DNA from: Tsuneonella rigui
GTDB lineage: Bacteria; Pseudomonadota; Alphaproteobacteria; Sphingomonadales; Sphingomonadaceae
Direction: 5' to 3'
Assembly (NCBI RefSeq): GCF_003958625.1
Contig: NZ_RSEL01000014.1
Span: forward strand, 62,001 to 126,000
DNA: 64,000 bases
The translations under genes and the position numbers were made by a program. Below the pieces are notes generated by a model. The model saw only the letters and a list, made by a program, of their open reading frames with translations, did no database searches and was not told where the DNA came from. Below, piece by piece: positions 3,427-62,491 of this stretch (position 1 is its first letter; each line of letters starts with the position of its first letter).

Positions 3427-4185
3427 TCAGTCGCGCCAGCTGCGGTCGATGCGGTCGATCTTGCGCTTCCACGCCTCAAAATCGGCCTTGCCCGGCCCGC
3501 CGGGCAGCGCGACCTGGCCGAGATCGCGCTGGTGCACGTCGATCACGTCCTGCTGCACGGTGATCGGCTCACCTTGGCTGAGCACCGCGATCTGGATCTC
3601 GCACGCGCGCTGGAGCGACCAGGCGGTCACGAACATTTCCGGAATCGTGCGGCCCATCACCACCGGACCGTGGTTCCTGAGCATCAGGATGCGCTTGCCG
3701 CCGAGGTTCTGCAGCAGTCGCTCGCCCTCTTCCTCGCGGACCGTCACGCCCTCGAAGTCGTGATAGCCGATCTGGCCCTGGAAGTTGCAGGCGTAGAAGC
3801 TGATCGGCAGCAGCCCGCGGCTGTGGCTCGACACCGCCATGCCGGCGGTGGTGTGCGTGTGGCAGATCGCGTGCGCGCTCTCGATGTGCCGGTGGAAGTA
3901 AGCGTGCTGGGTGAAGCCGGCCTTGTTCACCGGGTAGTTGCCGGCGAGCACGTTGCCGTCGATGTCGATCTTGACCAGGTTCGACGCGGTCACCTCGTCA
4001 TACAGGAGCCCGAACGGGTTGATCAGGAACGCGTCGTCCTCACCCGGCACCTTCACGCTGATGTGGTTGTAGATCGATTCCGACCAGCCGAGGTGGTCGA
4101 AGATGCGGTAGCAGGCGGCAAGGTCGAGCCGGGCCTGCCATTCGGCCTCGCTGCATTCGATCCGGGGCTTGAGCTGGGTGGCCAT
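3427..4185 (-). CDS. Class II aldolase/adducin family protein
   Basis: Cytosolic class II aldolase/adducin-fold protein, 252 residues. The zinc-binding histidines are visible as H109 and H111 (CHTHTT) and H172 (LRNHGP). The catalytic Glu of fuculose-phosphate-type aldolases is not at its usual place; the segment reads NKAGFTQHAYFH, as in the large subfamily of decarboxylase or unknown-function relatives, so true aldolase activity is doubtful. The start at 4185 is set by AGGAGAG (4191-4198) at good spacing, rather than the upstream Met at 4242 that would overlap the DUF2891 gene. It is the middle gene of a minus-strand operon with DUF2891 (31 bases upstream) and the [2Fe-2S] subunit (10 bases downstream). 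Confidence 0.9.
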   Translation of the reverse strand: MATQLKPRIECSEAEWQARLDLAACYRIFDHLGWSESIYNHISVKVPGEDDAFLINPFGLLYDEVTASNLVKIDIDGNVLAGNYPVNKAGFTQHAYFHRHIESAHAICHTHTTAGMAVSSHSRGLLPISFYACNFQGQIGYHDFEGVTVREEEGERLLQNLGGKRILMLRNHGPVVMGRTIPEMFVTAWSLQRACEIQIAVLSQGEPITVQQDVIDVHQRDLGQVALPGGPGKADFEAWKRKIDRIDRSWRD

Positions 4186-4216
4186 CGGGGACTCTCCTTG
4201 CATCCGTTGCTTGGCG

Positions 4217-5206
4217 CTACTTATCGCACGCCGCGGCTTCAAGCGCCAGCAGCGCGAAGCTCGCGAGCCAGTGCGAGCCCATGTAATCTTCGCCGATGTG
4301 CGGCAGGCTGGCGGCGATGTGCCGCTGCGCCACCGCGGCGAAGCGACCGGGCTCGCCGAGCGCCGCGCCGATGCCGTTCCAGCACCACGCCCGGCTGAGG
4401 TTGAGCCCGTCGAGATGGGCGATCTTGCCGTCGCTGCGGTCGGACACGTGGACCGGCTCGAAAAGCATCTGCGGCGCGCCGCTGTCCGCGTGCGGGAGGA
4501 AGCTCTCGAACCACGCGGCGAAAGCGTCGCGTGGCAGCACGCGGCTCATCAGCAGCGCGGCAGTGAGCGCAGGCGAAAGGAACTCGTCGCCGCCCGGCTC
4601 CCAGCCGCGATAGTCCGCGCGGTCGCCGAACCATCCCACCGCGCGCTCGCGGATCAGCGTGGCGAGTACGGGATCGCGCCTCTCCGCCCACTCGAGCGCC
4701 AGGACGAGCGCAAAGGCGGTGTTGAAGTGGGTGCCGACGGTGATCGGATAAGTGAGCTTGGGCAGGAACTCACGGAACTGCGCCGCGAAGCGCAACGCGA
4801 GCGGCTCCAATGCCGCGGCCCACGGTGCGTCGTGCCGCGCGGTTTCGGCATGGAGCGCGAGGAGCCAGGCCCAGCCATAGGGCCGCTCGAAACTGGCGCC
4901 GAAGGGCCGGTCGAGCCGGGCGACCTCGCCCGCGACCTTGGCCGGCACCAGCATGGCGTTGGCGAGCACGCGGATGTCGGCCGCCTCGGGCATGTCGGGA
5001 AACAGCCGCAGAAGGCGCAGCACCTGCCAGTAGCCGTGGACGCAGCTGTGCCAATCGAAGCTGCCGTGGAAGATCGGGTGGATCGCGGCGGGCCCGGCGA
5101 CATCGTCGGGGCCGTTCAGCACCTGGTCGAGCTTGTAGGGCCAACGCCGGGTGAGGTTGGGCAGCGTCATATGCACGAAGTTGCGCGCGGTAGGTTCGCT
5201 CAGCAT
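4217..5206 (-). CDS. DUF2891 family protein
   Basis: A 329-residue protein of the DUF2891 family. Recognisable conserved stretches include NGPDDVAGPAAIHPIFHGSF, DWHSCVHGYW, RPYGWAWLLAL, GTHFNTAF, RAWCWNGIG and GSHWLASFALLAL. The pattern of repeated aromatic-rich helices suggests an alpha/alpha-toroid fold like those of glycan-active enzymes (inference). No signal peptide or membrane segment is seen, so it should be cytoplasmic. Its biochemical role is unknown. It heads the minus-strand operon with the class II aldolase and [2Fe-2S] subunit; the promoter must lie in 5207-5467. Confidence 0.85.
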   Translation of the reverse strand: MLSEPTARNFVHMTLPNLTRRWPYKLDQVLNGPDDVAGPAAIHPIFHGSFDWHSCVHGYWQVLRLLRLFPDMPEAADIRVLANAMLVPAKVAGEVARLDRPFGASFERPYGWAWLLALHAETARHDAPWAAALEPLALRFAAQFREFLPKLTYPITVGTHFNTAFALVLALEWAERRDPVLATLIRERAVGWFGDRADYRGWEPGGDEFLSPALTAALLMSRVLPRDAFAAWFESFLPHADSGAPQMLFEPVHVSDRSDGKIAHLDGLNLSRAWCWNGIGAALGEPGRFAAVAQRHIAASLPHIGEDYMGSHWLASFALLALEAAACDK

Positions 5207-28360: not shown

Positions 28361-28897
28361 TTACTTGACCAGTTCGACTTCCTCGAAGCCCAGCTCGACC
28401 GGGGTCGCGCGGCCGAAGATCGACACGCTGACCTTGACCCGCTGCTTGTCGAAGTCGAGCTCCTCGACCACGCCGTTGAAGCTCGCGAACGGGCCGGCGT
28501 TGACCTTGACCTGGTCGCCGATTTCGTAATCGACGTGGACTTGCCGCTTGGGCGCGGCCTTGGCTTCTTCCATCCCGCCGAAATAGCGGGCTGCATCTCG
28601 TTCCGAGATCGCCTGCGGCTTGTTGCCCGAGCCCAGGAAGCCGGTCACCTTCGGGGTGTTCTTGACGAGGTGGTAGACGTCGTCGGTCATCACCAGCTTG
28701 GCGAGGACGTAGCCGGGCATGAACTTGCGCTCGACCTGCACCTTCTTGCCGCGCTTGACCTCGGTCACCGTTTCGGTCGGGACTTCGACCGCCTCGACCG
28801 CGTCGGACAGGCCGAGCCGCTCGGCCTCCGAGATGATCGCGTCGCGAACCTTGTTCTCGAAGCCGGAATAGGCGTGGATGATGTACCAGCGGGCCAT
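28361..28897 (-). CDS. nusG: Transcription termination/antitermination protein NusG
   Basis: Universal elongation factor of 178 residues. The NGN domain shows [30 protein letters not shown] and [16 protein letters not shown]; the KOW domain shows [19 protein letters not shown]. It follows secE by 25 bases in the canonical secE-nusG pair. The downstream retropepsin gene ends 21 bases from its stop on the opposite strand. Confidence 0.98.
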
Positions 28898-28922
28898 GGG
28901 TGCGTGTTTACCTGTGAAAGCG

Positions 28923-29117
28923 TCAGGCGAGCGACAGCAGCCAGCGCATGATCGCGCCGAACAGAGTGTCGATGCCGAGGAAGAAGACCGAGAGGATGAC
29001 CATCATGATGGCGACGAAGATCGCGGTGCGAACCGTCTCTTCACGGCTCGGCCACACCACCTTGCGCGCTTCGGCGCGCACCTGGTTGAAGAATTCCGCC
29101 GGGCTGGTCTTGGCCAT
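28923..29117 (-). CDS. secE: Preprotein translocase subunit SecE
   Basis: Short single-span SecE of 64 residues, part of the SecYEG channel. MAKTSPAEFFNQVRAEARKV, VVWPSREETVRT and a C-terminal hydrophobic helix (AIFVAIMMVILSVFFLGIDTLF in two parts: AIFVAIMMVILSVFF, LGIDTLFG) are diagnostic. The start is ATG 29117; the longer reading to 29288 adds unrelated residues from the leader. Confidence 0.97.
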   Translation of the reverse strand: MAKTSPAEFFNQVRAEARKVVWPSREETVRTAIFVAIMMVILSVFFLGIDTLFGAIMRWLLSLA

Positions 29118-29179
29118 GATAACGTCAGCTCTCGCCTGCAAATGGATGTGCTGCTTCCTCGGGATCGGGTCGCCTCTTA

Positions 29180-29209
29180 CAAGTAAGGAACCGAGCCGCC
29201 CCGGTTCAA
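29180..29209 (-). promoter_or_regulatory. Candidate sigma-70 promoter of secE-nusG
   Basis: On the minus strand TTGAAC (29209-29204) and TACTTG (29185-29180) are separated by 18 bases and lie about 65 bases before the secE ATG. The -35 is good, the -10 weak. It is the best match in the spacer, but no more than a candidate. Confidence 0.35.
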
Positions 29210-29280
29210 GGTACCGGGAGGGTAGGCAGGCGCTCCATCTGTCGGAAAAAGCGGGATCGCCATTAGGCCCCGCTCCAGCC

Positions 29281-29322
29281 AAAATCAAGCCGCGCCGCAG
29301 GCCCGGCGGCCCGCGGCGCGGC
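29281..29322 (-). terminator. Rho-independent terminator after the 49-residue ORF
   Basis: A ten-base GC stem, GCCGCGCCGC (29289-29298) with GCGGCGCGGC (29313-29322), is followed in minus-strand reading by TTGATTTT. It lies 28 bases after the stop of the small ORF at 29351 and insulates it from the secE promoter. Confidence 0.8.
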
Positions 29323-29350
29323 TCATCGCGTTTGCAAAGCGTGTTGGGGC

Positions 29351-29500
29351 TCAGCGCCAGCCGAACAGACGGGCGAGGAACCCAGGCTCTTCCATCGGCC
29401 GAATGGGCCCGTGCATCTGATAGCGCATCGACGCGTCATGGAACGGGCGGGGCTGCACCCAGGTATCGGGCCTGCTGCTGCGGTAAGAAAGACCAGACAT
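29351..29500 (-). CDS. Small protein of 49 residues, unknown function
   Basis: An ORF reading MSGLSYRSSRPDTWVQPRPF, then HDASMRYQMHGPIRPMEEPG and FLARLFGWR. It has its own complete transcription unit: an EcfG-type promoter at 29546-29571, a GGGA sequence 10-13 bases before the ATG, and a strong terminator at 29281-29322. The Arg/Pro-rich composition and amphipathic end FLARLFGW suggest membrane or nucleic-acid contact, but nothing certain can be said. Its isolation between promoter and terminator argues that it is expressed. Function unknown; general stress response membership is inferred. Confidence 0.7.
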   Translation of the reverse strand: MSGLSYRSSRPDTWVQPRPFHDASMRYQMHGPIRPMEEPGFLARLFGWR

Positions 29501-29545
29501 GCGTATAATTCCCTGAACCGAATTGCCCCTCCGGCTATCGCGTAC

Positions 29546-29571
29546 AACGTTTCCCCGAGCGCGGTGGTTCC
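29546..29571 (-). promoter_or_regulatory. EcfG (general stress) promoter, GGAAC-N17-CGTT
   Basis: On the minus strand GGAAC (29571-29567), 17 bases, then CGTT (29549-29546): an exact match to the EcfG/RpoE2 promoter consensus of Alphaproteobacteria. It lies about 46 bases before the ATG of the 49-residue ORF, at the 3' border of the ECF41 gene. Confidence 0.7.
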
Positions 29572-29575
29572 CGGG

Positions 29576-30487
29576 CTAACGCTTGCTAACGCGCTGATTC
29601 TCGGGAGAATCGCGGTCGCTCATCGCAAGCATCGCCTTGATGTGTCGAAGCTTATCGGGGTTGCGCACGATGTAGAGCGCGGTGATCTTTCCATCGCGGA
29701 CCTCGAGCGCGGTTGTCTGCAAGATTGCCCCGCGGTCGATGCTGACGAAGCCGGGAAGACCATCGATCATAACGATGCGCAGCAGTTGCGGCCGATATGC
29801 CGCCTTGCGCGCCAGCCCCTGGAACAGGCGGAGCACACGGTCCATTCCGCGGACGACATTGCGGAAGGCGACGACTCTGCCGCCGCCATCGGAGAATACG
29901 GCGACTTCGTCGGCAAGAATACCGCTCAGGGTCTTGAGGTCGCCTTTCGTGCTCGCCTCATGAAACGCGCGCACGAGCTCCGACGCGCTTTGCGGTGACA
30001 GCGTGTACCGCGGCCTCGCCTCGCGGACGTGGCGGCGGGCACGGGAAGCAAGCTGGCGAACGGCGGCCGGTTCGCGTTCGAGGACGGCGGCCACCTCGTT
30101 CAGCGGCGTATCGAAAATGTCGTGCAGCAGGAAAGCAGCGCGTTCGAGCGGTGAAAGCCGCTCCATCGCCATCATGAGCGTCAGAGTGACATCGTCGGCT
30201 ACGGCCTCTTCGCTGGCCTGCTGGAGGAGCGGCTCCGGCAACCACGCGCCGACATATTCCTCGCGCCGCGCCCGCGCCGACTTTAGTCGATCCAGGCAGA
30301 GGCGAGTCGCGATCCGGGTCAGGTAGGCCTCCGGCACATCGATTTTGCCATCGACCGCCGCCCAGCGCGGCCAGGCATCCTGGACGACATCCTCGGCTTC
30401 GCTCAGCGAGCCCAGCATGCGATAAGCGAGGCGCAGCAGCCGGGGCCGCTGCGCCTCGAAATCGCTCAGGCGGGTATCAGGCTGCAT
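29576..30487 (-). CDS. ECF41-type RNA polymerase sigma factor with SnoaL-like C-terminus
   Basis: Extracytoplasmic-function sigma factor of 303 residues. Region 2 includes RLLRLAYRMLGSLSEAEDVV and region 4 includes LSPLERAAFLLHDIFDTPL with EVAAVLEREPAAVRQLASRA. A C-terminal SnoaL-like extension carries the two ECF41 hallmarks, DGGG at 200-203 and NPDKL at 276-280. In this group the extension itself controls activity, replacing an anti-sigma factor. The start at 30487 gives the standard N-terminus and overlaps the carboxymuconolactone decarboxylase gene by 11 bases. ECF41 factors usually drive the gene of such a neighbouring decarboxylase, oxidoreductase or epimerase. Base composition looks less GC-rich than its surroundings, consistent with acquisition. 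Confidence 0.93.
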   Translation of the reverse strand: MQPDTRLSDFEAQRPRLLRLAYRMLGSLSEAEDVVQDAWPRWAAVDGKIDVPEAYLTRIATRLCLDRLKSARARREEYVGAWLPEPLLQQASEEAVADDVTLTLMMAMERLSPLERAAFLLHDIFDTPLNEVAAVLEREPAAVRQLASRARRHVREARPRYTLSPQSASELVRAFHEASTKGDLKTLSGILADEVAVFSDGGGRVVAFRNVVRGMDRVLRLFQGLARKAAYRPQLLRIVMIDGLPGFVSIDRGAILQTTALEVRDGKITALYIVRNPDKLRHIKAMLAMSDRDSPENQRVSKR

Positions 30488-30947
30488 CGGCGCGCATTGT
30501 CGCACCGCGCGGCGGATGGGCAACACGGAAGCCGACCTGGAGCCGGTTCCAGACATTGATCGCGCCGATGGCGAAGGTCAGTTGCACCCGTTCCCCTTCG
30601 TCGAATTGGGCCGCGAGGGCATCATATGCTTCTTCACTCGCCCCATCGTCCGCCACGCGGGTCAGCGCCTCGGTCCAGCCCAGCGCCGCTCGCTCGCGAT
30701 CGGAATAGAGATAGGAGTCGCGCCACGCGCTCAGGAGGTAAAGCTTCATTTCGTCGACGCCGCGCTTCCGCAAGTCGGTGGTGTGCATGTAGATGCAAAA
30801 GGCGCAGCCGTTGATCTGCGACGCGCGCAGCTTGACGAGTTCAAGCAGCTCCGGATCGATCGCCTGGGCGAGCGCTTGTTCGAGTGCGACCATCGCCTTG
30901 AAGCCGGCGGGAAAGAGGGCGGATGGATTGTCGAGGCGGGGGGTCAA
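30477..30947 (-). CDS. Carboxymuconolactone decarboxylase/AhpD-like protein
   Basis: AhpD-fold protein of 156 residues with the redox motif CxxCxxxH in NGCAFCIYMHTTDLRKRG. Such proteins act as peroxidase-type disulphide reductants or decarboxylases. The start is TTG at 30947, fixed by AGGAGA (30954-30959) six bases away; the longer frame runs back through tRNA-Trp and is spurious. It precedes and overlaps the ECF41 sigma gene, the standard ECF41 pairing, and has an ECF41-type promoter at 30990-31016. It is therefore the likely regulated target. Confidence 0.92.
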   Translation of the reverse strand: MTPRLDNPSALFPAGFKAMVALEQALAQAIDPELLELVKLRASQINGCAFCIYMHTTDLRKRGVDEMKLYLLSAWRDSYLYSDRERAALGWTEALTRVADDGASEEAYDALAAQFDEGERVQLTFAIGAINVWNRLQVGFRVAHPPRGATMRADAA

Positions 30948-52418: not shown

Positions 52419-52436
52419 ATGCGCGGAGACCCTGAC

Positions 52437-53540
52437 ATGGCCGACCTGTTCGAGAACCCCGTTGGCCTCGACGGCTTCGAATTCGTCGAGTTCTGCGCGC
52501 CCGAGAAAGGCATGCTCGAACCGGTGTTCGAGAGCATGGGCTTCGCGCATGTCGCCAACCACCGCTCGAAGGACGTCCAGCTGTGGCGCCAGGGGGGCAT
52601 CAACCTGATCGCCAACTACGAACCGCGCAGCGCCGCGTGGTTCTTCGCCCGTGAGCACGGTCCCAGCGCGTGCGGCATGGGCTTCCGCGTTCGCGACGCG
52701 CGCAAGGCCTATGCGCTGCTGCTCGAGAAGGGTGCCGAGCCGGTGCAGGTCGAAACCGGCCCGATGGAACTCCACATCCCGGCGATCCGCGGCATCGGCG
52801 GCGCGATCGTGTACCTGGTCGACCGCTACGAGGGTAAGACCGGCGACGACGATCTCACCATCTACGACATCGACTTCGAGTACCTGCCGGGCGTCGAACG
52901 CCGCCCCGAGGGCGCGGGCTTCAGTCACATCGACCACCTGACGCACAACGTCTACGGCGGGCGGATGAAGTTCTGGGCGGACTATTACGAGACGCTCTTC
53001 AACTTCCGCGAGATCCGCTACTTCGACATCAAGGGCGAATACACCGGCCTCACCTCCAAGGCGCTAACCGCGCCCGACGGCAAGATCCGCATCCCGCTCA
53101 ATGAGGAAGGCGAAGGCGGCAAGGGCCAGATCGAGGAATTCCTGCGCGAATTCAACGGCGAGGGCATCCAGCACATCGCGCTCATCTGCGACGACCTCGT
53201 GCCCGCATGGGACAAGCTCAAGGCGTACGGCGTGCCGTTCATGACCGCCCCGCCGGAAACCTACTACAAGATGCTCGACGAGCGCCTGCCCGGCCACGGC
53301 GAGGACGCGAGTGCGCTCAAGACCCGCGGCATTCTTCTCGACGGCACCACCGAGGGCGGTTCGCCCCGCCTGCTGCTGCAGATCTTCGCCCAGGCGCAGG
53401 TCGGGCCGGTGTTCTTCGAATTCATCCAGCGCAAGGGCGACGAAGGCTTCGGCGAAGGCAACTTCAAGGCGCTGTTCGAGAGCATGGAACGCGACCAGAT
53501 CGAGCGCGGCGTGCTGCAGGTCGAGGAGCCGGCGGAATGA
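52437..53540 (+). CDS. hppD: 4-hydroxyphenylpyruvate dioxygenase
   Basis: Fe(II)-dependent conversion of 4-hydroxyphenylpyruvate to homogentisate in tyrosine degradation. The 367 residues carry the metal triad H167 (IDHLTHNV), H246 (GIQHIAL) and E328 ([10 protein letters not shown]). Start ATG 52437 with GCGGAGAC upstream is preferred over 52419, which falls next to the operator. The VOC gene starts within its stop (ATGA). Homogentisate dioxygenase is not in the window. Confidence 0.95.
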
Positions 53541-54103
53541 GCGCTCATCCGGTACAGCTCGGCGGAATCCATCATGCGGCATACCGCTGCAAGGACGCCA
53601 AGGAGACGGTCGAATGGTACGGCCGCGTGCTCGGCATGGACTACACCACCGCCTTCGCCGAGGATCACGTCCCCTCGACCGGTGACTACGATCCCTACAT
53701 GCACGTGTTTCTGGATGCGGGTAACGGCAACGTGCTCGCGTTCTTCGAACTGCCCAACCAGAAGGACATGGGCCGCGACGAGAACACTCCCGCGTGGGTC
53801 CAGCACCTGGCGTTCAAGGTCGGCAGTGAGGACGAGCTGCTCGCGGCGAAGAAGCACGTCGAGGCGCAGGGGATCGACGTGCTCGGCCCGACCCATCACG
53901 GTATCTTCAAGTCGATCTATTTCTTCGATCCCAACGGTCACCGCGTGGAGCTCGCCGCCGACATCGGCACAGACGAGCAGTATGCCGAACTGAAGCGCGT
54001 GGCGCCGATGATGCTCGACGAGTGGAGCCAGACCAAGAAGGCCCCCCGCCACGCCGACTGGCTGCACAAATTGGCGCGCGAGGAGCACGCCCAGAAGGAC
54101 TAG
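53537..54103 (+). CDS. VOC/glyoxalase-bleomycin resistance family protein
   Basis: Vicinal-oxygen-chelate protein of 188 residues with two beta-alpha-beta modules. Candidate metal ligands are H12 or H13 (GIHHAAY), E71 (AFFELP), H90 (WVQHLAF) and E138 (HRVELAAD), the full VOC set. It is translationally coupled to HPPD, so it may act on an aromatic-degradation intermediate, for instance as an extradiol-type dioxygenase or isomerase. The exact reaction is unknown. Confidence 0.88.
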
Positions 54104-54155
54104 GGCCGGGGGTAGCGTTACCGCTCTGTTTACCCCTCGCCGCTAGAGCGGGGGC

Positions 54156-55457
54156 ATGCGCGGCGAGAACAAACCGGAAGTCTGTGTTATCGGCCTTGGC
54201 TACATCGGCCTGCCGACCGCGGCGATCATCGCCCGGGCCAACTGCCGGGTGACCGGGATCGACGTGTCGCAACACGTGGTTGACACGATCAACCGGGGCG
54301 AAATCCATATCGAGGAAGTCGATCTCGACGGCCTAGTACAGGGCGTCGTCCAGCGCGGGATGCTGACCGCGTCGGCCGAGATCGTGCCGGCCGACGTGTT
54401 CGTGATCGCGGTGCCTACTCCGTTCGAGAAGGACGGCCAGCACACCCCCGACATCAGTTACGTGATCGCTGCCGCCACCAGCCTCGCCGCGGTGCTCAAG
54501 AAGGGCGACTGCGTAATCCTCGAATCGACCTCGCCCGTCGGCACCACCGAGGCGTTGCGCGATCGGCTGGCGGCGCTGCGGCCCGACCTCAAGATGCCGG
54601 GCCTGACTGCGGAAACGCCTGACGTATCGATCGCCTATTGCCCCGAGCGGGTGCTGCCCGGCCGCATCCTCGAGGAATTGACGCACAACGACCGCTCGAT
54701 CGGCGGGATTACCCCGCGCTGCGCCCGCAAGGCGCTGGCGTTCTACAAGCTGTTCGTGCGCGGCACCTGCATCACGACCGACGCCCGCAGCGCCGAGATG
54801 ACCAAGCTGGTCGAGAACGCCTACCGCGACGTCAATATCGCCTTCGCCAACGAGCTTTCGATGATCGCCGACCGCATGGGCCTCGACGTGTGGGAGGTGA
54901 TCCGTCTCGCCAACCGCCACCCCCGGGTGAACATCCTCCAGCCCGGCCCGGGCGTGGGCGGACACTGCATCGCGGTCGATCCCTGGTTCATCGTCAGCAG
55001 CGCGCCGGAGGAGGCGAAAGTCATCCGCACCGCGCGCGAGGTCAACGACGCCAAGATGCACCACGTATTGGCCCAGGCGACCGAACTGATCGAAGCCAAC
55101 CCAGGCGTCCCGGTCGCCTGCCTCGGCCTCGCCTTCAAGGCCAACATCGACGACTTCCGCGAGAGCCCGGCGCGCTTCGTCGCCGCCAATCTGGCGCGCA
55201 AGTTCGGCAACAGGGTGCGGATCGTCGAACCCTATGCCGCGGAGCTGCCGCTCGAGTTCACCGACACCGGCGCGACATTGGTCGACATCGACACCGCGCT
55301 CGAAACCTGCGGCGTGCTGATAGTGCTAGTCGACCACGACGTGTTCCGCGTGGTCCCGGCCGAGGAGCGGACTGGCGCAGCGGTCTACGATACACGGGGC
55401 ATCTGGCCCGACACGGCGCGCGCCCAGCCGGCGCCGCACATCCGCCTCGCCAGCTAG
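54156..55457 (+). CDS. wecC: UDP-N-acetyl-D-mannosamine dehydrogenase
   Basis: NAD-dependent two-step oxidation of UDP-ManNAc to the uronic acid for surface polysaccharide. The 433 residues include VIGLGYIGLPTAAIIA, VPTPFEKDGQHTPDISYV, STSPVGTTEAL, YCPERVLPGRILEEL, LVENAYRDVNIAFANELSMI and catalytic C271 in GVGGHCIAVDPW. Complete and intact. No wecB epimerase or glycosyltransferase is nearby, and the next gene is a deletion-type chimera, so this looks like what remains of a polysaccharide cluster. Confidence 0.93.
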   Translation: MRGENKPEVCVIGLGYIGLPTAAIIARANCRVTGIDVSQHVVDTINRGEIHIEEVDLDGLVQGVVQRGMLTASAEIVPADVFVIAVPTPFEKDGQHTPDISYVIAAATSLAAVLKKGDCVILESTSPVGTTEALRDRLAALRPDLKMPGLTAETPDVSIAYCPERVLPGRILEELTHNDRSIGGITPRCARKALAFYKLFVRGTCITTDARSAEMTKLVENAYRDVNIAFANELSMIADRMGLDVWEVIRLANRHPRVNILQPGPGVGGHCIAVDPWFIVSSAPEEAKVIRTAREVNDAKMHHVLAQATELIEANPGVPVACLGLAFKANIDDFRESPARFVAANLARKFGNRVRIVEPYAAELPLEFTDTGATLVDIDTALETCGVLIVLVDHDVFRVVPAEERTGAAVYDTRGIWPDTARAQPAPHIRLAS

Positions 55458-55472
55458 GCGATTGCCAGCACG

Positions 55473-55525
55473 GGGCGGGACCGGTAGTCCCGCGCCCGAA
55501 TACATCCGATTTGGGCGGGACCGGT
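55473..55525. repeat. Direct repeat of GGGCGGGACCGGT and hairpin
   Basis: GGGCGGGACCGGT occurs at 55473-55485 and 55513-55525, 40 bases apart. The first copy is part of a hairpin, GCGGGAC (55475-55481) with GTCCCGC (55487-55493). The second copy ends two bases before the TTG start of the chimeric gene. It could be a duplicated operator or a scar of rearrangement. Confidence 0.55.
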
Positions 55526-55526
55526 C

Positions 55527-56771
55527 TTGAAAGTCGTCATCTTCGGTCTCGGCTATGTCGGCTGCACCGCCGCGGGCTGCATCGCCAGCCAAGGCCACCA
55601 GGTCATCGGCATCGATGTCAGCCAAACCAAGGTCGATGCGATCAACGCCGGCCGCTCGCCGATCCACGAGCCCGGTTTAGCGGAACTGATCGCCGAGGCC
55701 CGCGCCTCGGGGCTGATCGAAGCACGCCTCGCGATCGGTGATGCGCTCGAAGGGGCTGACATCGCGATCGTCTGCGTCGGCACGCCGAGCGGTGTCGATG
55801 GCGCGCACAACATGGGCTTCATCGCGCAAGTCACGCGCGACATCGCCGCGAACCTGGATGCCAAGCGCGCGGGTCCGCTGACGGTCGCTTACCGTTCGAC
55901 CATGCGGCCGGGGACGACTGAACAATTGATCCGCCCTATCTTCCGCACCGCGCTCGGCGAGGCGGCGGATCAGGTGATCGAACTGGTCTACAATCCCGAA
56001 TTCCTGCGCGAGGCGAGCGCGATCGCCGACTATTTCGCCCCGCCCAAGATCGTCATCGGCACGCTCGACGGGCGCGCCTCGCCCGCGATGGACCGCTTGC
56101 ACGAGGGGATCGACGCGCCGACCTTCCACGTCGGCATCCGCGAAGCCGAGGTGACCAAGTTCGTCGATAACACCAAGCCGTTCCGCAGCTTTGCGCAGGA
56201 GACCACTGCCCTGCTCGCGCTCACCGCGGGAGACAGCGCGGCAGCGCGGGATGAAGCGCAACGGCTGGTGCGGCGTCGGCCAATGCCGGCCGAGCATCTG
56301 TTTGCACTCGGGTTGGCGGAGATGCGCAGCGGGCACCCGCAGGCCTTCGCCGCCGACTTCCGCGCGGCCTCGACCCGCGGCTGGCGCTTTTCTCCGCTAC
56401 AGGTGACTGCGGCCCAGGCCGCCTTGGCGAACGGCGACGTCAAGGGCGCGGCGAACCGGGTGGCAGCGCTCTGGGCGGCGGACAGCGGCAACGCGCTGCT
56501 GCCGAGCATCACCAAGACATTGCTCGCAGTGCCCGGCGGTCCCGAGGCGTTCGCCGTGCCGCTCGCGCAGACGCACGTGTGGTCGGCGAACTTTCTCGGC
56601 GCAGCACCCGGCTTGGTCGAGCCGCCGATCGCTTTGCGCACCGTGCTCGCCGCCCAGCGGGCTGGAGCGCGGTTCGATTGCTTGGCGCTAACAACTTTTC
56701 GACAGGGTTTGGCGGCCCGCGGACTTTCGGCGCCCGCACAGGACCTCGCCTGCACGCCGGCTGCCAGTTAG
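55527..56771 (+). CDS. Chimeric gene: truncated GDP-mannose/UDP-glucose dehydrogenase fused to a TPR-like C-terminus
   Basis: A 414-residue ORF made of two unrelated parts. Residues 1-216 are the NAD-binding half of an AlgD/Ugd-type nucleotide-sugar dehydrogenase (IFGLGYVGCTAAGCIASQG, VGTPSGVDGAHN, YNPEFLREASAIADYF, EAEVTKFVDNT). At the point where the family continues with the central helix bearing a catalytic Lys, and later the catalytic Cys domain, the protein switches to KPFRSFAQETTALLALTAGD, a helical TPR-like region to residue 414. The junction is near base 56172. Dehydrogenase activity must be lost. It looks like an in-frame deletion fusion. Start TTG 55527; an ATG alternative is not available near the conserved N-terminus. 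Confidence 0.85.
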   Translation: MKVVIFGLGYVGCTAAGCIASQGHQVIGIDVSQTKVDAINAGRSPIHEPGLAELIAEARASGLIEARLAIGDALEGADIAIVCVGTPSGVDGAHNMGFIAQVTRDIAANLDAKRAGPLTVAYRSTMRPGTTEQLIRPIFRTALGEAADQVIELVYNPEFLREASAIADYFAPPKIVIGTLDGRASPAMDRLHEGIDAPTFHVGIREAEVTKFVDNTKPFRSFAQETTALLALTAGDSAAARDEAQRLVRRRPMPAEHLFALGLAEMRSGHPQAFAADFRAASTRGWRFSPLQVTAAQAALANGDVKGAANRVAALWAADSGNALLPSITKTLLAVPGGPEAFAVPLAQTHVWSANFLGAAPGLVEPPIALRTVLAAQRAGARFDCLALTTFRQGLAARGLSAPAQDLACTPAAS

Positions 56772-56781
56772 AGACACGACG

Positions 56782-57960
56782 ATGTCCTCAATTCGATCCC
56801 TTCCGGTGGCGGGTATCGTGCTTGCGCTGGTCACCGGGGCCGTGATGGCGATAGCCGGCACCAACTTGCTGCTCGTGCTCGCGGCGATGCTGGTGTGGAT
56901 CGCCTCGCTGTGGCTGGCGCAACCGGCGCCGGTGGTGGTTCCGCCCGAGGAGCGAGAGGGTGTCCAGCTCACTCCCACCGGAATGCGCGACCTGATCGAG
57001 CATTCCGGCGTTGCGATGGCGATCCTCGACGGCAACCGCATCATCGTCGCCAACAATGAAGCGCGCGAGGCGCTGGGGCCGCACGTCGTCGGCCAGGACG
57101 CGCGCGTGGCCTTCCGCCATCCAGCAGCGGTCGACCTGCTCAACCGCACCACCGGCGGCAGCGCCACCATCCAGGGCCTGACCGGTCCGCAGACCAGTTG
57201 GCAGATGACCCGCCAGCCGTTCGACGACCGCTTTGCCCTCGTTGAACTGATCAACCGCACCGCCGAGATCGACATCAGCCGCGCGCACACCGATTTCGTG
57301 GCCAACGCCAGCCACGAGCTGCGCACCCCGCTCGCCTCGATCATCGGCTATGTTGAGACGCTGATCGACGGGCGCGAGACGATCGAGCGCGAGCAATCGG
57401 AGCGGTTCCACACAACGGTCCTGCGCGAAGCCAAACGGCTGCAGACGCTGGTCGCCGACCTCATGTCGCTGTCACAAATCGAGGCGGAGAAGCATGATCA
57501 GCCGCGCGAGGAACTCGATCTTGTAGCCCTCTCCCGGCGCGCCGCGCGCGATGGCGCCGGACCCAACAATGAGCGACTGCGATTTACTGGTCAAAGCGCG
57601 CCGCTGATCGTGCGTGGCGACATGAAGCAGCTTGAGCAATTGGTGCGCAACCTGATCGAGAACGCGATCAAATACGGGCGCGACGGCACCGAAGTCTCGG
57701 TCGATCTTGAGAACGACGGCCGGGGCATGGCGGTGCTGAAGGTGCGCGACCATGGGGACGGGATTCCATCCGAGCACATCCCCCACCTGACCCGCCGCTT
57801 CTACCGGGTCGATCCCGGTCGCAGCAAGGCGACCGGCGGCACCGGACTCGGGCTCGCGATCGTCAAGCACATCGTCGAGCGACATCGGGGCCGGCTCGAT
57901 ATCGCGAGCCGGGTTGGCGATGGCACCATCATCACGGTGAAGATCCCGCTCGCCGGTTAG
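56782..57960 (+). CDS. phoR: Phosphate regulon sensor histidine kinase PhoR
   Basis: Inner-membrane sensor kinase of 392 residues for phosphate limitation. Two N-terminal hydrophobic helices (about 9-45), a PAS-like segment (65-160; HSGVAMAILDGNRIIVANNE), HisKA with H178 in NASHELRTPLASIIGYVETL, and the ATPase domain (NLIENAIKYG, VRDHGDGIP, TGLGLAIVKHIVERH). It precedes pst genes, the usual alphaproteobacterial order phoR-pstSCAB-phoU-phoB. It starts 10 bases after the chimeric gene ends. Confidence 0.95.
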   Translation: MSSIRSLPVAGIVLALVTGAVMAIAGTNLLLVLAAMLVWIASLWLAQPAPVVVPPEEREGVQLTPTGMRDLIEHSGVAMAILDGNRIIVANNEAREALGPHVVGQDARVAFRHPAAVDLLNRTTGGSATIQGLTGPQTSWQMTRQPFDDRFALVELINRTAEIDISRAHTDFVANASHELRTPLASIIGYVETLIDGRETIEREQSERFHTTVLREAKRLQTLVADLMSLSQIEAEKHDQPREELDLVALSRRAARDGAGPNNERLRFTGQSAPLIVRGDMKQLEQLVRNLIENAIKYGRDGTEVSVDLENDGRGMAVLKVRDHGDGIPSEHIPHLTRRFYRVDPGRSKATGGTGLGLAIVKHIVERHRGRLDIASRVGDGTIITVKIPLAG

Positions 57961-57975
57961 CTTTGCGACACGTGG

Positions 57976-57993
57976 CTGTCGTCAAACTGTAAC
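57976..57993 (+). promoter_or_regulatory. Pho box upstream of pstS
   Basis: CTGTCGT-CAAA-CTGTAAC: two seven-base repeats 11 bases apart, matching the PhoB direct-repeat consensus (CTGTCAT-N4-CTGTCAT). It lies 39 bases before the pstS ATG, so pstSCAB-phoU-phoB should be induced by PhoB under phosphate starvation. Confidence 0.8.
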
Positions 57994-58032
57994 ATGAGGG
58001 CCCTAGTCGCGGCGGCGAACAAGGGGACTCCC

Positions 58033-59076
58033 ATGACCACGAAGCATCATATCCTGCTCGCCCTCCTCGGCACCGCCGCGCTGTCCGCCTGCGGCGGCGG
58101 TGCCAGCGAAGGGACCCGCGAATCGGTTCGCGCGGTCGGCTCGTCGACCGTCTATCCGTTCGCCAAGCTGGTGGCGGAGAACTTCACCAAGTCGAACGCC
58201 GACTTCGCCTCCCCGATCATCGAATCGACCGGCACCGGCGGCGGCATCGAGTTGTTCTGCCAGGGCGTCGGCGCGGCCACGCCCGACATCGCCAACGCCT
58301 CGCGCCGGATGAAGGCGAGCGAGTACGAGAAGTGCAAGAAGAACGGCGTGACCGAGATCACCGAGATCCAGGTCGGCCTCGACGGCATCGCCTTCGCTTC
58401 CAAGAAGGGCGGGATCGACATGAACCTGACCCCGGAAATGGTCTACCGCGCGCTGGCGGCCAATCCCTACGGCAAGAAGAACACCGCCAAGACCTGGCGC
58501 GACGTCTATCCGTCGCTGCCCGCCAAGCCGATCCTGGTCTACGGCCCGCCCTCGACCTCGGGCACGCGTGACGCGCTCAAGGAACTGATCCTGGTCGCCG
58601 GGTGCGACGCGAACGCGGAGATGAAGGCGCTCAAGGACAGCGACAAGGACAAGCACGAGCAGATCTGCACCGAAGTGCGCGACGACGGCGCCTACGTCGA
58701 TCAGGGCGAGCAGGACAACCTGATCGTCCAGAAGATCGAGGGCAACGCGGACGCGATCGGCGTGTTCGGCTACTCGTATCTTGAAGAGAACATGGACCAG
58801 ATCCACGGCCTCAAGATGAACGGGGTCGAGCCGACCTACGAGAACATCGCCAGCTTCACCTACCCCGGTGCCCGGCCGCTGTTCATCTACGTCAAGAACG
58901 CCCACCTCGATGCGATCCGCGGCTTGCGGGAGTTCGTCGGCGAGTGGACCAAGTCGTGGAGCAAGGACGGCCCGCTCGCGAAGATCGGCCTCGTCGCCAG
59001 CCCGGCCGACGTGGCGGCGAAGAGCCAGGCGGCGGCGACCCAGTTCACCCCGCTCGCCGCGACCGAACTGAAGTAG
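58033..59076 (+). CDS. pstS: Phosphate ABC transporter substrate-binding protein PstS
   Basis: Periplasmic phosphate-binding lipoprotein of 347 residues. The signal ends TAALSACGGG (lipobox Cys). Phosphate-binding elements: VGSSTVYPFAKLVAE, STGTGGGIELFC, DIANASRRMK and PSTSGTRDAL. AAGGGGA lies just before the ATG at 58033; the upstream ATG at 57994 falls within the Pho-box region and is rejected. First gene of the pst operon. Confidence 0.96.
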   Translation: MTTKHHILLALLGTAALSACGGGASEGTRESVRAVGSSTVYPFAKLVAENFTKSNADFASPIIESTGTGGGIELFCQGVGAATPDIANASRRMKASEYEKCKKNGVTEITEIQVGLDGIAFASKKGGIDMNLTPEMVYRALAANPYGKKNTAKTWRDVYPSLPAKPILVYGPPSTSGTRDALKELILVAGCDANAEMKALKDSDKDKHEQICTEVRDDGAYVDQGEQDNLIVQKIEGNADAIGVFGYSYLEENMDQIHGLKMNGVEPTYENIASFTYPGARPLFIYVKNAHLDAIRGLREFVGEWTKSWSKDGPLAKIGLVASPADVAAKSQAAATQFTPLAATELK

Positions 59077-59092
59077 CCGGCGCAACCGCACG

Positions 59093-60478
59093 ATGTCGCC
59101 GAGTTTGCTGCTATTACTGGCCCTCGGGCTAGGGCTGGCCGCGTGGCTGGCGGCGCGTGCGCGCGCGTGGAGCTTCCGCCGGAGCGCACCGACGGTGCGC
59201 CTGTCCGCCCTGCCCGCGTACCACGGCTGGTACGTGGCACTGTGGGTGATCGTGCCGGCGGGTCTGTTCGCGCTGATCTGGAGCGCGGTTGCGCCGCAGC
59301 TGGTGCTCAATTCGGTGCTGAGCGATCCCGCCGCGGCCAGCTTACCGCCGTTCGGGATGCAGCGGGCAACCATTTTGGCCGAAGCGCGCGCTGTTGCGAC
59401 GGGTGCCGCACCGGGTGTCTTCAACCCCGCCGGTCGCGCAATGGTGGAACCTTTCCGCGAAGCAATCGGGCGGTTCGACCTGATCGGCCTCGCCGCGCTA
59501 TTGGTGTTCGCATTCCTCGGCGGCGCGTGGGCGTTCGTCCGACTCAAGCCCGATTTCGCCGCGCGCGTGAAGGTCGAGCGGGCGGTGATGGCGGCGCTGG
59601 TGCTCGCCTCGCTGGTGGCGATCCTGACCACGCTCGGCATCTTTCTCAGCCTCGTGTTCGAAACCAGCCGCTTCTTCGGCATGGTGAGCCCGGTCGACTT
59701 TCTGTTCGGCACCCACTGGGCGCCTGATCCGATGAGCCGCGCAGAGGTGGTCGACGGCTCGCGCTACGGCGCCCTGCCGCTATTCTGGGGCACGATCTAC
59801 ATCGGCGCGATCATCGCCATGCTGGTCGCGATCCCGCTCGGCCTGATGAGCGCGATCTACCTCACTCAGTACGCCAGTCCGCGGTGGCGCAAGTGGCTTA
59901 AGCCGACGCTCGAGATCCTCGCCGGCGTGCCGACTGTGGTCTACGGCTATTTCGCCGCGCTGACGGTCGCCCCATTGGTGCGCGACGCGGCACAAGCACT
60001 CGGCGTCGCGAACGCATCGAGCGAAAGCGCGCTCGCCGCCGGTCTCGTCATGGGCGTGATGATCATTCCTTTCGTCTCCTCGATGGCCGACGATTCCATC
60101 GCCGCGGTCCCGCAGGCGATGCGCGACGGCAGCCTGGCGATGGGCGCGACCACCAATGAGACGATCCGCCGCGTGCTGATCCCCGCCGCCCTACCCGGCA
60201 TCGTCGCCGGCGTGATGCTCGCGGTGAGCCGGGCGATCGGCGAGACGATGATCGTGGTGATGGCCGCGGGTGCCGCCGCCAACCTGTCGGCGAATCCGCT
60301 CGACTCGATGACCACCGTCACCTTCCAGATCGTCGCCATGTTGACCGGCGAAGGCAGCTTCGATCACCCGGCCACGCTCAGCGCTTTCGCGCTCGGGTTC
60401 GTGCTGTTTCTGGTGACGCTGGCGCTCAATTTTGTCGCCCTGCGCGTCGTCAAGCGGTTCCGTGAAGCCTATGAGTGA
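59093..60478 (+). CDS. pstC: Phosphate ABC transporter permease PstC
   Basis: Inner-membrane permease of 461 residues. An N-terminal extension with several hydrophobic segments precedes the conserved permease core (GTIYIGAIIAMLVAIPLGL, YLTQYASPRWRKWLKPTLEI, LAGVPTVVYGYFAAL, RRVLIPAALPGIVAGVML). The EAA-type loop (GATTNETIRRVLIPAALPG) contacts PstB. Its last bases overlap the pstA start by eight. Confidence 0.95.
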   Translation: MSPSLLLLLALGLGLAAWLAARARAWSFRRSAPTVRLSALPAYHGWYVALWVIVPAGLFALIWSAVAPQLVLNSVLSDPAAASLPPFGMQRATILAEARAVATGAAPGVFNPAGRAMVEPFREAIGRFDLIGLAALLVFAFLGGAWAFVRLKPDFAARVKVERAVMAALVLASLVAILTTLGIFLSLVFETSRFFGMVSPVDFLFGTHWAPDPMSRAEVVDGSRYGALPLFWGTIYIGAIIAMLVAIPLGLMSAIYLTQYASPRWRKWLKPTLEILAGVPTVVYGYFAALTVAPLVRDAAQALGVANASSESALAAGLVMGVMIIPFVSSMADDSIAAVPQAMRDGSLAMGATTNETIRRVLIPAALPGIVAGVMLAVSRAIGETMIVVMAAGAAANLSANPLDSMTTVTFQIVAMLTGEGSFDHPATLSAFALGFVLFLVTLALNFVALRVVKRFREAYE

Positions 60479-61718
60479 GGTCGCCACCACGCGCACGCCG
60501 GCCTTCGAGGCGCGGCTGAAGAAACGCTACGCGGCCGAGCGCCGCTTCCGCCTTGCTGGCCTCGGCGCGATCCTGTTCTCGGTCGCGGTGCTGGTGTTCC
60601 TGCTCGGCACGATGACGTTCAACGGGATCGGCGGCTTCCAGCGCGCGACGCTGAGCGTACCGGTCGACTTCGACCAGGTCGGGCTCAGCTTGCCACCGGG
60701 TGTGTCGGACACCGGCGCGGTATCGCGCGCGCTGGAAGGACAAGGCTTGCCCGACCTCGTCCAGTTCAGCGTCGAGCGCGCGCTCGGCAAGCAGGCGGCG
60801 GCGGAGCTCAACTCCGATGCCTGGCGCCTAGTCGCCGAACAGGTCGCGGAGGATCCGGCGCTGCTCCAGGGCACGCATACTTTCGACCTACCGGTCACCG
60901 AGAACTTCGCCTCGGCGCTCGCCGGCGACGGGCATGCCGAACTGCAGCCGCTCGCCCGCCAGCTCGCCGCGCAGGAAAAGCTGGAGCGCAGCTTCGACGC
61001 CGGCTTCCTGACCCGTTCCGACGCGACCGATCCGCAGCAGGTCGGCATCTGGGGCGCGCTCAAGGGCTCGATCCTGACCATGATCGTGACCCTCGCCCTC
61101 GCCTTTCCGATCGGCGTGCTGGCCGCGCTCTATCTTGAGGAATACGCACCGCGGAACCGCTGGACCGACCTGATCGAGGTTTCGATCAACAATCTCGCCG
61201 CGGTCCCCTCGATTATCTTCGGCCTGCTCGGCCTCGCCCTGTTCCTCGGCGTGTTTCCGCACATGCGTTCCGCCCCGCTGATCGGCGGCATGACGCTGGC
61301 GCTGATGACGATGCCGGTGATCGTTATCGCCGGGCGCAATGCAATCAAGGCGGTTCCGCCCTCGATCCGCGACGGGGCGATGGCCCTGGGCGCCTCGCCG
61401 GTGCAGGTCGTGTTCCATCACGTGCTGCCGCTCGCCCTTCCCGGCATCCTGACCGGCACGATCATCGGCATGGCGCGCGCGCTGGGCGAGACCGCGCCGC
61501 TGCTGATGATCGGCATGCGCGCCTTCGTCGCAACGCCGCCCGATGGCTTTACCAATCCGGCGACTGTGCTGCCGGTGCAGATCTTCCTGTGGTCGGACGA
61601 GATCGACCGCGGCTTCGTCGAGCGCACCAGCGCGGCGATCATCGTGCTATTGCTGTTCCTCCTCCTGATGAACGGCGTGGCGATCTACCTGCGAAACAAA
61701 TTCGAGAAGAAATGGTGA
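60471..61718 (+). CDS. pstA: Phosphate ABC transporter permease PstA with DUF3333-type N-terminus
   Basis: Second permease subunit, 415 residues. A long N-terminal region with one membrane helix and a large non-membrane stretch (about 50-190) corresponds to the DUF3333 extension common in Alphaproteobacteria; the core begins at [20 protein letters not shown], with [20 protein letters not shown] and the EAA loop [19 protein letters not shown]. Start ATG 60471 overlaps pstC. Confidence 0.95.
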
Positions 61719-62491
61719 CCGACAGCTCCTCCCCCGACGCCAAGATGCGCACGCGCGACGTGTCGGTGTTCTACGGCGCGAAGCAGGCGGTGGATTCAGT
61801 CTCGATCGACATCCACAGCGAATACGTGACCGCCTTCATCGGCCCATCGGGCTGCGGCAAATCGACCTTCCTGCGCGCGCTCAACCGGATGAACGACACC
61901 ATCCCCAGCGCGCGGGTTGAAGGCTGCATCGAACTGGACGGCGAGGACATCTACCGCTCCAGCATGGACGTGGTGCAGCTCCGCGCGCGGGTCGGCATGG
62001 TGTTCCAGAAGCCCAACCCGTTTCCCAAGTCGATCTACGAGAACATCGCCTACGGCCCGCGCATCCACGGCCTCGCCGAGGGCAAGCAGGAGCTCGATGC
62101 GATCGTCGAGAAATCGCTCCGCCGCGCGGGCCTGTGGGACGAGGTGAAAGATCGCCTGAGCGATTCCGGCACCGCGCTGTCGGGCGGCCAGCAGCAACGG
62201 CTGTGCATCGCGCGTGCGATCGCCGTACAGCCCGAAGTGATCCTAATGGACGAGCCTTGCTCCGCGCTCGATCCGATCGCCACCGCGCGGATCGAAGAGC
62301 TGATCGACGAGCTGCGCGGTCGCTATGCGATCGTCATCGTTACGCACTCGATGCAGCAGGCCGCGCGCGTCTCGCAGCGGACTGCTTTCTTTCACCTGGG
62401 GAAGATGGTCGAATACGGCCACACCTCGGACATCTTCACCAATCCCCGCGAGGAGCGGACCAAGGATTACATCACAGGCAGGTACGGCTGA
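61712..62491 (+). CDS. pstB: Phosphate ABC transporter ATP-binding protein PstB
   Basis: ATPase of 259 residues. Walker [11 protein letters not shown]-loop [15 protein letters not shown], signature [16 protein letters not shown], Walker [14 protein letters not shown] and switch His in VTHSMQQA. The start is ATG 61712 or GTG 61715, both overlapping the pstA stop. Its own stop overlaps the phoU start (TGATG). Confidence 0.96.

Follow-up and report, generated by a model that had tools for sequence, protein, structure and literature searches.

A single open reading frame in Tsuneonella rigui joins the first half of a nucleotide-sugar dehydrogenase to a TPR-like protein. From comparison with related genomes, this gene is probably a deletion-born fusion, enzymatically dead and most likely an inert, young remnant of the loss of an exopolysaccharide cluster of ~30 kb. 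The frame lies in the stretch of DNA analysed here (the window; 64,000 nucleotides, C14:62001-126000 of genome G000), and its sequence is present once in that genome. Features are collected in Table 1; G, C and L numbers denote genomes, contigs and loci.

Table 1 Features of the fusion locus and of related loci. Positions refer to the window unless a locus number is given.
Feature	Position	Strand	Remarks
hppD-like 4-hydroxyphenylpyruvate dioxygenase gene	52419..53540	+	Left flank; in 11/11 same-genus genomes, 87-94% identity in ten relatives
Glyoxalase-like gene	53537..54103	+	Left flank; adjoins hppD in ten same-genus relatives
wecC, intact UDP-N-acetyl-D-mannosamine dehydrogenase	54156..55457	+	NF008286 equivalog, 573.7 bits vs. 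cut-off 459
wecC-chimera gap, 69 bases	55458..55526	+	Predicted hairpins up to TTG start
Chimeric ORF	55527..56771	+	414 codons, TTG start at 55527, stop ends at 56771, no internal stop
Chimera 5' part	55527..56174	+	Codons 1-216 of dehydrogenase gene; NAD-binding domain; E208, K211 and N215 kept
Chimera 3' part	56175..56771	+	TPR-like, KPFRSFA to C-terminus; lacks hydrophobic N-terminus of relatives
Putative deletion junction	56173..56175	+	Placed by comparing nucleotides with relatives of both parents; parents share at most CC
phoR-like histidine kinase gene	56782..57960	+	HisKA and HATPase_c; start codon 10 bases after chimera stop
Pho-box-like site	57976..57993	+	Between phoR and pstS; sole match in window
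pstS-pstC-pstA-pstB-like genes	57994..62491	+	ORFs
Dehydrogenase remnant, G010	L054:11977-12282		About 59 codons beside intact wecB-wecC; different cut of same gene
GT4::TPR fusion, G390	L156:7072-8901	-	One 609-codon ORF
Serine recombinase gene, G390	L156:4827-6626		Directly beyond TPR gene; possible mobile element
Shared-breakpoint locus, G006	L055:9394-10608
Shared-breakpoint locus, G390	L156:7700-7900

Two halves in one open frame

An earlier, sequence-only reading of this DNA had described one uninterrupted frame of 414 residues, in which the NAD-binding half of a nucleotide-sugar dehydrogenase (residues 1-216) precedes TPR-like sequence (residues 217-414), and this description holds up. 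The TTG start is plausible, since intact dehydrogenase relatives use TTG, GTG and ATG at the same position. Profile searches gave matches to UDPG_MGDP_dh_N (Pfam PF03721) over residues 2-185 (9.7e-48) and to NDP-sugDHase (NCBIfam TIGR03026) over residues 2-216 (1.2e-62). The central and UDP/GDP-binding C-terminal domains (PF00984 and PF03720) were both found in wecC, which served as a control, and neither was found in the chimera. Scanned alone, the C-terminal half has TPR_16 as its best profile (E 1.1e-6), with 29.4 bits against a cut-off of 32.7; among the TPR parents, that of G004 has no Pfam match at E<=0.01 and that of G006 is sub-threshold. "TPR-like" is therefore the safe wording, since no Pfam TPR match lies above its curated cut-off.

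We place the join at 56174/56175, because dehydrogenase relatives that are at least 57% identical match from residue 1-12 to residue 216-218 (a few reaching 227-240) and TPR relatives in the same genus begin to match at residue 216/217; the TPR match of G003 is weak and partial, beginning at residue 338. To the left, the dehydrogenase can be followed to the codon for T216, and to the right the TPR gene takes over at KPFRSFA, which in G006 lies 37 codons into the gene. As far as relatives show the parents, these have no more than two bases (CC) in common at this point, so the deletion was probably illegitimate and not between long repeats; the true parental sequences are lost.

The catalytic Lys and the Cys domain had both been thought to be missing, and only the second part of this claim is correct. 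Dehydrogenase homology stops at residue 216, and the GGSCLPKD motif of the parent lies beyond. The Lys has been retained: E208, K211 and N215 are invariant in 26 orthologs and align with E207, K210 and N214 of GDP-mannose 6-dehydrogenase (1mfz, which we take to be AlgD). This structure is the closest to chimera residues 2-216 (167 bits); relative to it, the chimera keeps the active-site Lys and Asn and lacks the central and C-terminal domains that bear the catalytic Cys and Asp. In the enzyme family, a published study assigns an active-site role to three residues of the linking helix (Glu, Lys and Asn), and names Asn219 of the S. pyogenes enzyme as a fourth invariant position there (PMC4794789); the corresponding position falls past the chimera join. 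The same source gives Cys260 as nucleophile and Asp264 as general base of the S. pyogenes enzyme, both family-invariant (PMC4794789), and alignment with the parent and with 1mfz puts these positions in the lost part. What the chimera lacks is the remainder of the linking helix together with the two domains behind it, the central one, which carries the catalytic Cys, and the C-terminal one. Without catalytic Cys, general base and sugar-nucleotide domain the chimera cannot be a dehydrogenase, and we rejected an active enzyme on the grounds that the reaction cannot be completed.

Intact parents flank an exopolysaccharide cluster in relatives

In eight genomes of the same family, from three genera, the two parents are found on the same contig and strand at a distance of 27.1-37.8 kb (G004, G281, G290, G314, G365, G371, G385 and G403). 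Two fragments that share one frame in T. rigui are thus split by a same-strand segment in relatives, the arrangement by which a deletion-born fusion is recognised. In 8/8 of these genomes a full-length dehydrogenase gene is followed by a GT4 glycosyltransferase gene, and a Wzy_C/O-antigen ligase gene by the TPR-like gene. Behind the GT4 gene come relatives of wza and wzc in six of the eight and relatives of wecC-wecB in G371 and G290. The segment of G004 that matches the deletion measures about 30 kb, and the cluster in that genome has Pfam matches to Poly_export, Wzz, glycosyltransferases, Polysacc_synt and Wzy_C; by its predicted gene content, the segment between the parents is an exopolysaccharide or capsule cluster. 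An intact cluster flanked by both parents was what the earlier reading had suggested looking for, and its presence in eight genomes supports the proposal that a deletion of the middle of a polysaccharide cluster fused two genes in frame. The other genomes searched are unfused, intact parents occur in three genera, and the split state may be ancestral.

The pairing of ligase, TPR-like gene and dehydrogenase is not universal across the family. We surveyed 20 genomes for the parent pair (19 with the dehydrogenase, plus G024), and 12 had a TPR match. This lies 27-38 kb from the dehydrogenase gene on the same strand in seven and 2.4 kb from it in G390; the misfits are G136 (202 kb apart), G207 (other contig), G256 (a weak match, about 5 kb away) and G024 (which lacks a close dehydrogenase). 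In both G024 and G136, the ligase and TPR genes are paired but stand away from any close dehydrogenase gene, and weaker TPR matches in G025, G012 and G207 adjoin a Wzc and not a ligase.

The nearest dehydrogenase parent, with 73% identity over the shared 216 residues, is found in Alteraurantiacibacter aestuarii (Sphingomonadales, Erythrobacteraceae), and that of the same-genus genome G004 is 71% identical to the N-terminal half. All 26 intact orthologs compared are 419-424 aa long (26 of 30 dehydrogenase loci, leaving out the duplicates L022, L120 and L123 and the 42% relative L125). GDP-mannose is a likely substrate of the intact enzyme, as its nearest solved structure is 1mfz (320 bits). The TPR-like half is 61% identical to its counterpart in G006, 53% to that in G002 and 45% to that in G004. 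In G004, this gene sits directly 3' of the Wzy_C/O-antigen ligase gene, and its product starts with hydrophobic residues, after which comes VPAPFRSFA. Compared with the ligase-linked TPR-like protein of the family's exopolysaccharide clusters, the chimera has the same domain from PFRSFA on and lacks the hydrophobic N-terminus. N-terminal 19-residue hydropathy peaks are 2.2 (G006), 2.5 (G004), 1.9 (G371) and 1.7 (G390), compared to 1.2 for the C-terminal half of the chimera; the peak of 1.8 for the whole chimera sits in the NAD-binding part, and the sequence compared for G385 lacks the gene start and is uninformative. The hydrophobic N-terminus of the parent may be a membrane anchor, and gene order suggests that the TPR-like protein could be a partner of the ligase. 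Within the window, the TPR-like half is without its linked ligase.

On the left flank, the genes that we take to be hppD and a glyoxalase gene mark the edge of the region, and several same-genus relatives have polysaccharide genes just beyond hppD. The wecC gene directly adjoins the glyoxalase gene in G001, G005 and G007, and in G004, G008 and G010 other sugar genes lie between them. It had been called a lone wecC; this is true of its surroundings, where no partner stands beside it, and not of the genome, which has wecB on another contig (C15:3580-4695; 87% identical to that of G010). In G001, G004, G005 and G007, wecB and wecC are likewise apart. Contig C15 carries, in addition to wecB (3580-4695), a Wzc paralog (28476-30509), and may hold a second polysaccharide region. 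In the short gap between wecC and the chimera, a repeated GGGCGGGACCGGT and predicted hairpins at 55473-55526 may hinder translation of the chimera; the predicted fold of 55455-55550 has -41.6 kcal/mol (z -2.0), and 8/200 shuffles fold as well.

The fusion is found in one genome

Wide conservation of the full-length architecture would have spoken against a recent deletion, and we looked for it in three sets of sequences. Within the family, the fusion was seen in 1/397 genomes, its own (a draw from a larger group, searched with a cut-off of 1e-30 and the best four candidates per genome scored); a full-length chimera was found in 0/6 of the genome-contig loci, and of 811 plasmid records with a match, 0 covered 80% of it. 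A second genome of this species was not found. Matches running past residue 250 in G246 and G200 proved to be three-domain dehydrogenases with an N-terminal extension and not fusions. Our literature search found no description of this dehydrogenase-TPR fusion.

The assembly is a draft of 30 contigs, rated 100% complete. For the polysaccharide genes, own-genome searches covered selected proteins, namely the C-terminal half of the dehydrogenase, the cluster Wzc and wecB. The missing dehydrogenase half has matches of 35% (a separate dehydrogenase on C13) and 31% (wecC) only. For the cluster Wzc, the sole long match is a 32% paralog on C15, accompanied by short, weaker ones; by comparison, the Wzc proteins of G004 and G002 are 51% identical. 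A misassembly at the chimera join is unlikely, because these two missing parts have no close match in the assembly and relatives carry different deletions of the cluster.

Further cluster deletions in relatives

Three other, different deletions of this kind of cluster were found, in G010, G006 and G390. In G010, where the locus lies on one contig, wecB and wecC are kept and are followed by ~59 dehydrogenase codons and 21 further codons to a stop. G006 has the glyoxalase gene, a remnant of wecB to about codon 139 that is also frameshifted, the last 38 codons of the ligase gene and an intact TPR gene; here the deletion had preserved the reading frame into the ligase tail ahead of the TPR gene. 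In G390, which belongs to another genus, the whole dehydrogenase gene is kept, and codons 1-334 of the GT4 gene run into the last 36 ligase codons, out of frame, and on into a complete TPR gene. Like the chimera, the resulting ORF joins opposite ends of such a cluster in frame through a deletion; it differs in its left gene, the out-of-frame ligase 3' end, the retained TPR start and N-terminus and the adjoining serine recombinase gene.

The right breakpoints of G006 and G390, as judged from relatives, coincide within about 3 bases at the Gln-Ser codons of the ligase gene. They lie 36-38 codons before the ligase end and 113 and 110 bases, respectively, before the TPR start, and their left partners differ. 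Such a coincidence in different genera, with the TPR gene spared, is unexpected. Taking G000, G006 and G390 together, every right breakpoint lies no more than about 110 bases from the TPR start, before or after it, the TPR domain is spared, and the joins of G000 and G390 are in frame with the TPR gene. As G006 and G390 were found via the TPR gene, deletions that remove it are under-counted in this comparison.

Age and constraint

The chimera keeps 50/50 of the residues that are invariant in the 26 intact orthologs, and leave-one-out comparison over those orthologs gave 0-4 differences at such positions. In a neutral-decay simulation, the probability of keeping the invariant residues and acquiring no stop was 0.06 at 0.02 substitutions/site and 0.01-0.02 at 0.03. 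For the flanking hppD, glyoxalase and wecC genes, NG86 dS against G010 and G006 is 0.48-0.72 (YN00, which gave values for 3/13 pairs, yields 0.99 for hppD vs. G010 where NG86 yields 0.48). Since neutral retention is improbable beyond ~0.02-0.03 substitutions/site, as compared to this flank dS, the fusion must be young or else remain under constraint, and the conservation, pairwise-rate and decay tests fit both. Over the 58 codons shared by the G010 remnant and the chimera, dN is 0.15 and dS 1.39, which would fit late truncation of both genes; ortholog dS values are near saturation, with none obtained for L114 and L023. The TPR half has a dN/dS for G000 vs. G006 of about 0.25 (NG86) or 0.37 (YN00), much of which time may predate the deletion. 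The 414-codon open frame and the unrelaxed N-terminal half also fit selection, and so count against an inert remnant. In a structure model, the NAD-binding part mostly has pLDDT 73-96 to about residue 210, with dips of 61-65 near 81-100 and 161-170, and the C-terminal half forms a block with pLDDT 35-62, from an alignment without homologs.

The phoR-pst neighbourhood

Downstream of the chimera lie genes that we take to be phoR and pstS-pstC-pstA-pstB. Among the related loci read, only this genome has phoR-pst directly behind TPR sequence, and same-genus genomes that have both carry pstS far from the TPR gene. In G006, phoR starts 40 bases behind a gene that is presumably ABC ATPase-like and for which the genome of the window gave nothing at E<=1e-100. 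Because phoR-pst follows this gene in G006 and a strong match to it is absent here, the DNA was likely rearranged a second time near 56771/56782. The phoR gene may be transcribed through the chimera. A consensus scan of 54000-58100 found no sigma-70-type promoter, and a same-strand terminator-like site inside the chimera (56276-56293) is no more than expected by chance. Scanning with what we presume to be the Pho-box motif, in a pattern loosened after the sequence had been read, gave 1 match in the window vs. 0.04 expected; 4/100 shuffles have one.

Discussion

How could such a gene have come about? We propose an ancestor in which the ~30 kb exopolysaccharide cluster adjoined hppD-glyoxalase-wecC. 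A single illegitimate deletion would have had its left end after codon 216 of the dehydrogenase gene downstream of wecC, and its right end about 37 codons into the last gene, the small TPR-like gene that follows the Wzy_C/O-antigen ligase. The intervening genes would have been lost, leaving two remnants in a single reading frame; relatives display the earlier state, from which we infer the event. The product would have neither parent's activity and most likely does nothing, and its gene would be an open remnant, perhaps transcribed, given that phoR starts 10 bases on.

The origin of the frame could be explained differently. An assembly join, in which two separate loci of a 30-contig draft were wrongly connected, would suit a fusion seen as a single copy in a draft genome, yet it would need to be in frame without a repeat at the junction, nothing close to the dehydrogenase C-terminal half or the cluster Wzc is found elsewhere in an assembly rated 100% complete, and relatives have similar deletions; we consider it very unlikely. 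That the dehydrogenase-TPR architecture is old and widely conserved has a negligible probability, and is refuted within the genomes searched, at the sensitivity used, by its occurrence in one of the 397 family genomes and by the non-fusion nature of the G246 and G200 matches.

Other readings accept the deletion and give the chimera a role. It might matter as DNA or RNA, with phoR read through it or from an internal promoter and translation maybe coupled to that of phoR. The 10-base spacing, the position of the only Pho-box-like site behind phoR and ahead of pstS, and the different gene ahead of phoR in G006 all favour this; the lack of a sigma-70-type promoter in the scanned interval and the single, chance-level terminator-like site do not, the phoR promoter could lie inside the TPR part, and a phoR-TPR neighbourhood in one genome brings no comparative support. 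Such a role is possible but unlikely, and is compatible with an inert remnant. Somewhat more doubtful is that the TPR-like protein is kept without its cluster, the chimera being expressed with its TPR-like half active and the ligase/TPR border being a recurrent break site. A working new protein, made of an NAD-binding Rossmann domain and a TPR-like domain and selected for a new cytoplasmic role, is in our opinion improbable: the open frame, the full retention of invariant residues and the mostly confident model of the NAD-binding part are what it predicts, but a recent unselected fusion predicts identical conservation, only one genome has it, the N-terminal half is missing most of the linking helix and all that comes after it, the C-terminal model has low confidence, and the published fusion screen gives no clear new function for any fusion (PMC12803068).

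Deletion-born fusions have precedent. The preprint by Kaul et al. (2026) describes large deletions that join fragments of distant genes in one frame, while relatives show the split state; one locus underwent a similar deletion more than once, and a clear new function is not shown for these fusions (PMC12803068). The chimera shares with those fusions the in-frame deletion join, the split state in relatives and the recurrent loss of the locus (PMC12803068), and fits as a further case of the kind described. The published cases come from a single species or from very closely related ones and are 80% or more identical to the split form, whereas the nearest parents here belong to other species (61-73% protein identity) and one genome is fused; the lost segment, an exopolysaccharide cluster, also differs (PMC12803068).

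The locus is a clean natural example of a deletion making a new open gene, in which intact parents, lost segment and a parallel fusion are all visible. Environmental lineages are called sparsely sampled in the published screen (PMC12803068), and the chimera comes from a lineage of that sort. At least four of the family's genomes show the exopolysaccharide cluster cut in different ways, at breakpoints that do not look random, and this pattern makes selection for loss of the cluster, and possible selection sparing the TPR-like gene, testable.
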